Source of the DNA: Candidatus Thiodiazotropha sp. (ex Monitilora ramsayi)
GTDB taxonomy: Bacteria; Pseudomonadota; Gammaproteobacteria; Chromatiales; Chromatiaceae
Length of the DNA stretch: 64,000 nt
Direction of reading: 5' to 3'
Assembly: GCA_025655595.1 (NCBI GenBank)
Contig: JAHXIO010000006.1
Location: 310,001 to 374,000, forward strand
Made by a program: the position numbers and the translations under genes. The notes below the pieces were generated by a model. That model saw nothing but the letters and a program-made list of their open reading frames with translations, made no database searches and had not been told where the DNA came from. This document shows positions 59,499 to 62,122 of the stretch, piece after piece. Numbering within the stretch: position 1 is the stretch's first letter; each line of letters begins with the position of its first letter.

Positions 59499-59681
59499 TC
59501 AGCTAATAACCGCTTCTGCAGGGCCGGTGACAGAGGTGGACTCCCTGAAGCAGATCCGCTCCGCTTGTTCCGACTGTTTACCCGGATTGAAGGCGGAGAC
59601 CGGACGGTGGTATCCCATCACCCGGGTCCAGACTTCGCAGCGGGTGCGTTCTTCGTCTCTCAATTCAATGGTTGTTTGCAT
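59499..59681 (-). CDS. separate glycyl-radical domain of class III ribonucleotide reductase
   Basis: The 60-residue protein contains TRVMGYHRPVSAFNPGKQSE. This aligns with the extreme C-terminus of one-piece NrdD proteins (E. coli RRVCGY and FNAGKQEE), with the radical Gly in VMGY. The main nrdD frame ends without that segment. The small gene starts inside the end of nrdD (17-nt overlap, other frame) behind a perfect AAGGAGG nine bases before its ATG, so it is translated by itself, not by a frameshift. It should associate with NrdD to provide the radical. The last 15 residues look non-conserved. Confidence 0.85.
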   Translation of the reverse strand: MQTTIELRDEERTRCEVWTRVMGYHRPVSAFNPGKQSEQAERICFRESTSVTGPAEAVIS

Positions 59682-61713
59682 GGCTTGATGCCTCCTTCTC
59701 TTTACGTTGGATTAACTCTTCATCGCAGCGGGGACAGAATTCGTGCTCCCCGCTCAGATAGCCGTGGACCGGGCAGATGGAAAAGGTCGGGGTGACCGTC
59801 AGATAGGGCACCCGGAAATTCTCCAGGGATCGCTTCACCAGGCGCTTGCACGCCTCGGTGCTGCTGATGTGTTCATTCATATAGAGATGCAGCACGGTGC
59901 CTCCGGTATAGCGACGCTGCAGGGACTCCTGATGGCCCAGGGCCTCGAAGGGGTCGTCGGTATACCCCACGGGCAACTGCGAGGAGTTGGTGTAGTAAGG
60001 TTTCTCTTCGGTGCCCGCCTGTAGAATCTCGGGATAGCGCTTGAGGTCCTCTTTGGCGAATCGATAGGTGGTACCTTCGGCGGGCGTCGCTTCCAGGTTG
60101 TAGAGATTGCCGGTCTCTTCCTGGAACTCGACCATGCGTTGGCGGATGTGGTCGAGGAAACGGCCGGCGAACTTGTGTCCCCAATCGGAGGTGATATCCA
60201 GTTCTCCGCCGGTGAAATTGCGGATCATCTCGTTGACGCCGTTAATCCCGATGGTGGAGAAGTGGTTGCGCAGTGTGCCCAGGTAGCGCTTGGTGTAAGG
60301 GAAGAGACCCGCCTCCATGTGCCGCTGGATTACCTTGCGTTTGATTTCCAGGCTGTTGCGGGCCAGCCGCAGCAGTTCATCGACCCGGGAGATGAGGCCC
60401 GCTTCATCCTCCCGATAGAGATATCCCAGACGGGCGCAGTTGAGGGTGACCACGCCAAGGGAGCCGGTCTGTTCCGCTGAGCCGAAGAGGCCGTTGCCGC
60501 GCTTGAGCAGCTCCCGCAGGTCGAGTTGCAGGCGACAGCACATGGAGCGGACCATATTGGGGCTCAGTTCCGAATTGAGGAAGTTCTGAAAATAGGGCAA
60601 ACCGTACTTGGCGGTCATGGCGAAGAGCCTTTCCGCGTTTTCACTCTCCCAGGGGAAATCCTCGGTGATGTTGTAGGTCGGGATGGGGAAAGTAAATACC
60701 CGGTCCTTGGCGTCACCGGCGGTCATCACCTCGATATAGGCCCGGTTGATCAGGTCCATCTCTACCTGCAGATCGCCGTAGCTGAAAGGCATCTCCTCAC
60801 CGCCGATGACCGGGATCTGTTCGCGCAGGTCTTCTGGACAGACCCAGTCGAAGGTCAGATTGGTGAACGGGGTCTGGGTGCCCCAGCGTGAGGGGACGTT
60901 GAGGTTGTAGATCAATTCCTGAATATACTGGCGCACCTGTTCGTAGTTGAGATTGTCCTTGCGTACGAAGGGGGCCATGTAGGTGTCGAAGGAGCTGAAG
61001 GCCTGAGCGCCCGCCCATTCGTTCTGCAGGGTGCCGAGGAAGTTGACGATCTGACCGATCGCGCTGGACATGTGCTTTGGCGGACCCGACTCCACCTTGC
61101 CGGGTACACCGTTGAGCCCCTCGTGCAGCAGGGTGCGCAGAGACCAGCCGGCGCAGTAGCCTGCCAGCATGTCGAGATCGTGGATATGGATGTCGCCCTG
61201 GCGATGGGCTTCGCCGATCTCGGGTGGGTAGACATGGCTGAGCCAATAGTTGGCGATCATCTTGCCCGAAGTGTTGAGTATCAGTCCGCCGAGGGAGTAG
61301 CCCTGGTTGGCGTTGGCACTGACCCGCCAGTCGGATCGCTCCAGGTATTCGCTCACCGATGCGGAGACATCCAGTAGAGTACGCTGGGTCTCGCGCAGCT
61401 TTTTATGCTGCTCTCGATAGACGATATAGGCGCGGGCGGTCTTCAGGTGGTTGGCGCTGATCAGCACCTGTTCGACGATATCCTGAATCCGCTCGATCCC
61501 CGGTATCACCTCCCGAGGGCCGATGTGGGTCAGGACCTTGGTGACCTGGGAAGTGAGCAGTTTGGCTTCACTGCCATCGAACTCCCCCGTGGCCTGGCCG
61601 GCCTTCAGGATAGCATTTTCGATCTTGCCGGCATCGAAAATGGCTTCACTGCCGTCTCGCTTATGGACCCTGGTGGGGAGGCAAAAAGTCTGCTGCACGG
61701 CATGGTTGGGCAT
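59665..61713 (-). CDS. nrdD: anaerobic ribonucleoside-triphosphate reductase, catalytic part
   Basis: The 682-residue protein has an ATP-cone (residues 12-108), then the class III catalytic barrel, with DIHIHDLDMLAGYC placing the thiyl Cys at 187. The C-terminus has a zinc-type motif C647-PVH650 ... C660-PRC663 and then ends. The normal glycyl-radical tail (RVxGY... FNxGKQxE) is missing from this protein and lies in the next gene. It reduces NTPs without oxygen. Upstream are NrdR boxes and an FNR-like site. A Lys/Glu-rich end (RKEKEASSHANNH) overlaps the next gene. Confidence 0.94.
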   Translation of the reverse strand: MPNHAVQQTFCLPTRVHKRDGSEAIFDAGKIENAILKAGQATGEFDGSEAKLLTSQVTKVLTHIGPREVIPGIERIQDIVEQVLISANHLKTARAYIVYREQHKKLRETQRTLLDVSASVSEYLERSDWRVSANANQGYSLGGLILNTSGKMIANYWLSHVYPPEIGEAHRQGDIHIHDLDMLAGYCAGWSLRTLLHEGLNGVPGKVESGPPKHMSSAIGQIVNFLGTLQNEWAGAQAFSSFDTYMAPFVRKDNLNYEQVRQYIQELIYNLNVPSRWGTQTPFTNLTFDWVCPEDLREQIPVIGGEEMPFSYGDLQVEMDLINRAYIEVMTAGDAKDRVFTFPIPTYNITEDFPWESENAERLFAMTAKYGLPYFQNFLNSELSPNMVRSMCCRLQLDLRELLKRGNGLFGSAEQTGSLGVVTLNCARLGYLYREDEAGLISRVDELLRLARNSLEIKRKVIQRHMEAGLFPYTKRYLGTLRNHFSTIGINGVNEMIRNFTGGELDITSDWGHKFAGRFLDHIRQRMVEFQEETGNLYNLEATPAEGTTYRFAKEDLKRYPEILQAGTEEKPYYTNSSQLPVGYTDDPFEALGHQESLQRRYTGGTVLHLYMNEHISSTEACKRLVKRSLENFRVPYLTVTPTFSICPVHGYLSGEHEFCPRCDEELIQRKEKEASSHANNH

Positions 61714-61983: not shown

Positions 61984-62122
61984 GGTGCGGCAGGGCCGCA
62001 CCCTACAGACTAAGCTGTGAAAGACGTGAATCACCGCTAATGAACGTGAATGGAATGAAATAATTTAGCGGTATTTTGCATCCATTCAGGACCAGCTCTG
62101 TAGGGTGCGGCCCTGCCGCACC
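61984..62122. repeat. family C inverted pair
   Basis: GGTGCGGCAGGGCCGCACCC at 61984-62006 and its inverted partner at 62100-62122 (TAGGGTGCGGCCCTGCCGCA) enclose 93 nt in the gap between nrdD and the hydrolase gene. Each arm can fold by itself. Confidence 0.75.

Follow-up and report, generated by a model that had tools for sequence, protein, structure and literature searches.

The window, by which we mean the whole stretch of 64,000 nucleotides that was analysed, carries a gene for a class III ribonucleotide reductase (RNR), nrdD, followed by a small gene encoding a glycyl-radical loop and then by the activase gene nrdG, all on one strand (Table 1). The small gene starts 17 nt ahead of the end of the nrdD stop codon and in another frame, giving an overlap of 17 nt, and nrdG lies downstream of the small gene after a gap of 29 nt. 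The initial annotation had held that nrdD stops past a zinc motif and lacks the radical loop; this is borne out, and the full motif is CPVHG...CPRC. It had also described a separate loop gene of 60 codons that lies in a different frame behind AAGGAGG and shares 17 nt with nrdD, and both the coordinates and the tiling of the Pfam model (below) confirm this. The finger-loop pair Cys392-Cys393 is invariant in an alignment of NrdD chains. Upstream of nrdD, between positions 61984 and 62122, we noted by eye an inverted repeat of 23 bases, ggtgcggcagggccgcaccctac and its complement.

Table 1. Features of the nrdD locus; positions are those of the window.
Feature	Coordinates	Strand	Remarks
nrdD core	59665..61713	minus	682 aa; catalytic chain of class III RNR, lacks the glycyl-radical loop
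ATP-cone domain, NrdD residues 15-105	61399..61671	minus	PF03477, E 1.2e-20
Finger-loop Cys392-Cys393 (SMCCRLQ)	60535..60540	minus	presumed to be the thiyl-radical and reducing cysteines, by analogy with the family
Zinc knuckle CPVHG...CPRC, NrdD residues 647-663	59725..59775	minus	stays on the large chain; zinc role from NrdD literature
Shine-Dalgarno AAGGAGG of the small gene, within nrdD	59691..59697	minus	plus-strand cctcctt; 9-nt spacer
Glycyl-radical subunit gene, 60 aa, bears ERTRCEVWTRVMGYHRPVSAFNPGKQSEQAER	59499..59681	minus	conserved in genus and beyond
Gly23 codon, presumed radical glycine	59613..59615	minus	RVMGY motif
nrdG, radical-SAM activase, NrdG2 type, 209 aa	58840..59469	minus	TIGR02495, E 4.4e-61

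The products of nrdD and the small gene divide a single family model between them. NrdD matches positions 2-532 of the 562 positions of Pfam PF13597 (E 5e-175), and the small protein matches positions 532-561 (E 1.3e-7; 31.1 bits, with a cut-off of 26.2); thus, the pair tiles the model. NrdD also matches positions 3-662 of 684 in NF006126 (NrdD, PRK08270) with 1138 bits (cut-off 548). The sequence features of class III RNRs are found at the locus, although distributed over two chains: the catalytic core and ATP-cone are present in NrdD, as are, in its sequence, the zinc knuckle and the finger-loop cysteines; the radical loop is absent from the C-terminus of this chain and is borne by the second ORF; and a dedicated radical-SAM activase, NrdG, adjoins. 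Models of class I and class II RNRs reach just the first ∼150 residues of NrdD, which comprise the ATP-cone, with at most 57 bits. Pfam matches of the small protein up to an E value of 1 are NRDD and DUF6191 only, and its profile found no match among solved structures. A Foldseek search with the modelled chain returned class III RNR structures first, which confirms the core only.

The assembly of 4.68 Mb, which is 99.98% complete, holds two matches to PF13597 in all, the window nrdD and the small gene, and a search of the whole assembly with this model found no second nrdD core and no full-length nrdD. Two further matches to the small protein were weak (E 0.07 and 0.09, with an internal stop), and no second convincing radical loop was found in the assembly. 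Similarly, the only gene above the cut-off of TIGR02495 (NrdG) is the window nrdG.

The separation of core and loop is conserved in the genus. A core and a separate loop are present in 19 of 22 genus genomes, with the window's own genome counted, which excludes chance. The three exceptions are a core fragment at a contig end (G013), a genome with no match (G014) and a genome with a broken core in which no loop was found (G017); among the 19, one genome (G001) has the core itself in two frames. Loci were available for 18 of the 19; every one of these is split, with the identical frame change. The median dN/dS across 18 genus genomes is 0.23 for the small gene, a value that includes its variable tail, and 0.10 for nrdD.

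The same arrangement extends well beyond the genus, side by side with the fused form. PF13597 matches were found in 38 of 369 genomes of the window's class, 28 of which are split, 7 fused and 3 partial or weak (counted from the table). In a sample of 398 genomes from the window's phylum, 57 had a match, with the split pattern in 13, a fused protein in 43 and a weak match in one; the fused form is thus the commoner in this sample. The initial annotation had proposed looking in other genomes for short loop proteins beside a tail-less NrdD. A profile built from ten small proteins and run against species genomes yielded at least 589 stretches, of which 574 were confirmed and 80 kept; when these 80 plus other loci were sorted by script, 121 were split and 6 were fused, and a further 25 lacked a core within the locus. 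The 121 include contigs fetched twice, and a stricter pattern leaves 113 split loci, 101 of them distinct.

Among the 121 split loci, the loop gene lies in each of the three frames relative to nrdD, +1 in 57, +2 in 42 and 0 in 22, and the frame-0 loci have a stop between nrdD and the loop. Between the nrdD stop and the loop motif there are 25 to 312 nt (median 82), and nrdG was recognised directly downstream in 117. A Shine-Dalgarno sequence precedes some candidate ATG in most of 130 small ORFs from relatives, with at least five motif bases in 103, four in 23 and none in 4, as raw counts without a chance baseline. As a separate observation, the NrdD frames at six loci (L086, L090, L093, L239, L300 and L302) are ∼1000-1560 aa long, several with an interrupted core match, suggesting inteins or other in-frame inserts as judged from their sequences. 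In the small genome G649, a split NrdD (L292) has the loop SRSMGFIR, with phenylalanine in place of tyrosine.

Split NrdD proteins are encoded on plasmids and in several named bacteria. Plasmid pHG1 of Cupriavidus necator H16 encodes chains of 676 and 66 aa, and further cases occur in Bradyrhizobium, Sulfuricurvum, Azospira and Sulfuricystis, on Shinella plasmids, and in Pseudomonas, Stutzerimonas, Sutterella, Thiobacillus and SUP05; RefSeq labels some of the small loop ORFs 'nrdD'. NrdDG of pHG1 has been reported as essential for complete denitrification in C. necator. From the presence of core and small gene on pHG1 together with this reported need in denitrification, we infer that the two-chain NrdD of C. 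necator is functional. In C. metallidurans, NrdDG is given as Rmet_5137 and Rmet_5139, with the number between them skipped.

If the loop protein is a subunit in its own right, it need not be encoded beside nrdD, and indeed there are four genomes, the Holosporaceae genomes G444, G446 and G449 plus G749, in which the sole loop gene is not beside nrdD, lying instead on another contig or ∼9 kb upstream of nrdD; L119, a possible fifth case at a contig edge, was left out of this count. Thus, the loop must act in trans in these genomes. In all four, a radical-SAM gene matching NrdG follows the unlinked loop gene, and hence the loop can remain with the activase rather than with the enzyme.

These observations bear directly on whether the window genes yield two chains at all. 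The 17-nt overlap in the window, and the relatives in which the two genes share a frame and only one stop separates them, might be read as signs of programmed frameshifting or stop read-through that produces one full-length chain. The use of three relative frames, the gaps of 25-312 nt and the sole copies on other contigs or ∼9 kb away all argue against this, which we regard as very improbable for the window and which the unlinked loop copies rule out as a general mechanism. Still less credible, to the point of being negligible, is that the split was created by a sequencing error, or that nrdD is decaying while a full-length copy exists at another place. Nothing in the window speaks for it; there are single relatives with broken cores (G017, G001 and a Thiothrix plasmid locus, L059), but in G017 the broken core comes with no detectable loop, whereas the window genome has a single core and shares its layout with the other split genomes of the genus and with loci across phyla. 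We therefore reject error and decay, given the one core in the assembly and a split conserved in the genus, the class and beyond. The initial annotation had itself named a sequencing error and a second full-length nrdD as the outcomes that would overturn its proposal; both are contradicted by the 19 split genomes of 22 and by the one core. Its proposal that the enzyme is an assembly of NrdD and a small subunit is strongly supported, by conservation, by the varied frames and gaps, by the unlinked copies and by the lack of a full-length nrdD in the assembly. We conclude that the window very probably encodes one class III RNR as two chains plus an activase; the dN/dS of the small gene, higher than that of nrdD, and the occurrence of fused relatives count on the other side.

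The split is found with two different break points. In the window-type break (type A), the core ends past the zinc knuckle, and in a second type (type B), the break falls inside the knuckle. Type B comes from the phylum to which G456, a MAG with the name Verrucomicrobia, belongs; there, the NrdD family is above cut-off in 90 of 240 genomes. We read 26 loci of this phylum, 18 of them chosen to sample both forms, such that the 13 split and 13 fused loci are not frequencies. Six of the 13 split loci are window-like, with the entire knuckle CxxHG...CxxC on the core. The core of the remaining seven stops after CPVHG or CPIHG plus one more Cys (...ECP), and their small protein starts with M[AS][KR]CG.KTE[VI][YF]SRVCGY in 7/7. 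The motifs at the core end and at the small-protein start thus place the type-B break inside the second CxxC, and the zinc site of type B, if kept, would be common to two chains, as read from these motifs.

In a tree of 74 cores, type B forms one clade (SH-aLRT 100), and type A together with four fused rows forms another (SH-aLRT 99). AU tests rejected both a clade of all type-A splits without the four fused rows (p 2.4e-6) and a single clade of A and B splits (p 3.7e-5); because these tests used a 'quick' tree and long rows, with groups named when the labels were known, we restrict our claim to two break points plus re-fusion in one lineage (L131/L238). In L131/L238, a fused NrdD with two loops in tandem has a long linker that contains the tail of a type-A large chain and the head of a type-A small chain, and the second copy of the loop follows; this is apparently a re-fusion with a duplicated loop, which would be a spare loop in cis. 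In the phylum of an Actinobacteria MAG (G454), the family is above cut-off in 10 of 296 genomes; in eight of the ten the match extends as far as the loop end of the model, G454 has the split form, and the NrdD locus of G1066 yielded no loop. Since related lineages have fused NrdD proteins of the same family, splitting is not needed for function.

Loop genes are also found without any core. Two Allochromatium plasmids each encode a loop; their records contain no second PF13597 match, and no nrdG is annotated close to the loop gene. In addition, four genomes that have an operonic copy contain 11 extra loop copies, three each in G442 and G445, four in Thiocystis minor (G450) and one in G443, which were read in loci L271-L273, L275-L277, L279-L282 and L290. 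In L271 (G442) and L277 (G445), a phage-type integrase lies at most 200 nt away; L272 and L275 have an ORF of equal or near-equal size at the corresponding place. L290, in a BMS3Bbin13 stretch that is perhaps a prophage, has its loop gene near RecT and the large subunit of an RNR of another class. No phage hallmark was found next to L276 or L281, which have an ATP synthase-type protein and a VWA/CobT-like protein, respectively, as neighbours.

Viruses are a further source of stand-alone loops. In IMG/VR, 155 contigs encode relatives of the type-A loop, of which 80 loci were kept, and a script found neither an NrdD core nor NrdG in any of the 80. The 50 of these records that were searched whole have one PF13597 match each, to the loop only. 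A type-B query gave 71 loci, of which 66 show no core within the locus and 5 do; the cores seen in these five demonstrate that cores are detected when present. Of 42 type-B records searched whole, 38 have loop matches only (two matches in each of two records), and a core is present in 4; in five of the 38 the match crosses a stop codon, and in one of these five it starts as early as model position 470. A core is thus absent from 88 of the 92 IMG/VR records searched whole, some of which are near-identical and none of which is rated 90% complete, such that a distant core is possible in each. One virus record (G1410, the record of L383) has an NrdD core ending at model position 531 and a separate loop frame of 68 aa ∼3 kb away, a viral split NrdD.

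The neighbours of the loop gene were scanned at 15 type-A viral loci, with 25 of 160 families listed in one of the scans, and virus-type neighbours were present in 11 (L143, L144, L146, L152, L153, L169, L170, L206, L214, L216 and L220), including head protease, integrase, tail, head-tail adaptor, virion, terminase, portal, DNA polymerase with clamp loader, and helicase; in L169, terminase and portal flank the loop. Large ORFs scanned singly in L167, L172, L199 and L201 gave no match. The published archaeal virus ANMV-1 encodes a protein of 144 aa (AJP62049) with two CxxC motifs and an SRIVGY loop, and no other PF13597 match was found in ANMV-1. Among the annotated phages of INPHARED, the window small protein had no match; two viral type-A queries gave short matches only, with <60% identity and E 0.02 or worse, including ANMV-1, and Lak phages were among the records listed. 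A type-B query gave nine records, with ANMV-1 stand-alone and MT835493 and an Oceanotoga phage with a full-length NrdD. With so few stand-alone records in INPHARED, the evidence from viruses comes mostly from uncultivated contigs.

We found that the residues around the viral radical loop are strongly conserved. There are 58 distinct cores of the viral loop, from 79 of the 80 type-A loci; positions in them are counted from the T of TRVMGY, and a contig had to meet one of two search patterns. R-7, E-3, R+7, P+8 and R+23, all outside these patterns, are fixed in 58/58, while C-4 is found in 56/58 and W-1 in 57/58. The presumed radical Gly is present in 58/58, its motif having belonged to one of the two patterns. 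The closest cellular relatives of the viral copies have 76-100% core identity, and for L145, L147, L153, L154 and L166 the nearest is the SUP05 copy L122. Nine viral loop proteins (L163, L164, L172, L185, L187, L194, L198, L221 and L160) have an extra N-terminal stretch rich in Cys and His, perhaps a zinc module of their own to judge from its composition. Positions 111-158 of PHROG family phrog_4132, of unknown function, match the NrdD radical loop; by this likeness, the family is possibly one of stand-alone radical proteins.

Oxygen cuts glycyl-radical enzymes irreversibly. The initial annotation had suggested that the small protein could be exchanged after oxygen damage, which gains indirect support from the core-less copies on plasmids, near integrases and on viral contigs and from their conserved loop surroundings. 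The small protein could serve mainly as an exchangeable spare, such that loss of Gly23 to oxygen is repaired when a fresh copy rescues NrdD, with plasmid and viral copies acting likewise, and we consider the case for this reading to be evenly balanced. In its favour are the extra copies beside an operonic one in four genomes, the loops without a core in the 88 viral records and in ANMV-1, and the five residues outside the search patterns that are kept in every viral core; there is also precedent, in that YfiD and Y06I of phage T4 rescue pyruvate formate-lyase (PFL), as described in sections of PMC8683613. The extra copies, however, could serve dosage or other purposes. The viral stand-alone loops might instead be decoys or inhibitors that occupy the NrdD or NrdG of the host, as the 80 type-A viral loci have neither core nor NrdG and their products would compete with the copy of the host; the surroundings of the radical loop are nevertheless fixed in the 58 viral cores, an argument that depends on columns outside the search patterns, and we consider decoys improbable. 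The core-less copies taken together suggest that the loop protein is a replaceable and mobile part of the enzyme.

The window enzyme resembles several known systems, but differs from each. It has in common with NrdD and NrdG of E. coli, T4, T. maritima and Prevotella copri the core, ATP-cone, zinc knuckle, finger-loop cysteines, RVxGY loop and activase; in those class III enzymes, unlike in the window, the loop and tail are not on a second gene and chain, and the radical domain is described in PMC11226230 as the C-terminus of the NrdD chain itself. YfiD/GrcA of E. coli and Y06I of phage T4 are free glycyl-radical spares for PFL that are activated by the enzyme's own activase, according to the sections of PMC8683613 cited above. 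The window protein is similarly small and free, with the glycyl-radical motif in its sequence, and Y06I is phage-borne; the window protein, however, matches NRDD and not the PFL radical domain. Moreover, the partner of YfiD has a radical domain of its own, whereas the only NrdD in the window genome has none, which makes the small protein an obligatory subunit in the first place. The same sections of PMC8683613 state that spare-part proteins may exist for other enzymes and that, as of that paper, they were validated for PFL only.

An RNR in two chains is also known in class II: in NrdJa/NrdJb of Pseudomonas aeruginosa, the C-terminal domain is encoded apart (PMC9669993, PMC4860495 and PMC5704485). 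NrdJab, however, is of the B12 class, with no glycyl radical, and its separate part is a cysteine-rich domain that bears a zinc finger; in a comparison with the class II catalytic chain, the window nrdD is class III and not class II. AJP62049 of ANMV-1, named an anaerobic ribonucleoside triphosphate reductase, is like the window protein a radical-domain protein only, but has its own pair of CxxC motifs; the gene is labelled nrdD in PMC4372165, and the word 'glycyl' does not occur in the main text of that paper. In the literature searched, which comprised papers outside subscription, we found no description of a split NrdD or of a spare part for NrdD.

We propose the following model for the two-chain enzyme, which starts from the two genes, their conservation, their own frames and starts, the unlinked sole copies and the core-less mobile copies, all of which are observed. 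The large chain would bring the ATP-cone, the barrel with its reactive cysteines and the zinc knuckle, and the protein of 60 aa would bring only the radical loop and the C-terminal tail. NrdG, with S-adenosylmethionine, would place a radical on Gly23 while the small protein is free or already docked; the loop would be seated in the NrdD barrel, and the radical would pass from Gly23 to Cys392 or Cys393, at which point ribonucleotide reduction could start. When the two chains were modelled by AlphaFold2 as one read-through, residues 699-737, which comprise the loop (with the Gly at 700) and the tail, had pLDDT <50, such that the model gives the loop no confident position. Oxygen would cut the 60-residue piece only, which could be swapped while the chain of 682 residues is reused, and viruses and plasmids that bring the same piece may keep or restore the activity of the host enzyme. 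Docking, the radical at Gly23 and an advantage of swapping are the parts of this model that we infer; by analogy with NrdD and YfiD, NrdG should form the Gly23 radical, and the genetics of C. necator lend indirect support to the formation of a glycyl radical and of dNTPs.

The finding has consequences for the study of anaerobic DNA-precursor synthesis. The two-chain NrdD explains the small ORFs that RefSeq names 'nrdD', and it affects complementation and expression of nrdD in denitrifiers and pseudomonads, since constructs that lack the small gene are expected to have no activity. The viral copies suggest a minimal auxiliary gene, of roughly 45-150 residues, in place of a whole enzyme. A detachable radical subunit of RNR is also a natural system in which to test in-trans repair of an essential enzyme. 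In its broadest form, a view that we hold with no more conviction than its opposite, the radical domain may be a free, exchangeable and mobile subunit that was split off more than once, by breaks after or inside the zinc knuckle, and copies on bacterial and archaeal viruses and on plasmids may plug into host NrdD and be activated by host NrdG, and would in this way repair or boost the synthesis of DNA precursors under conditions that are not strictly free of oxygen.
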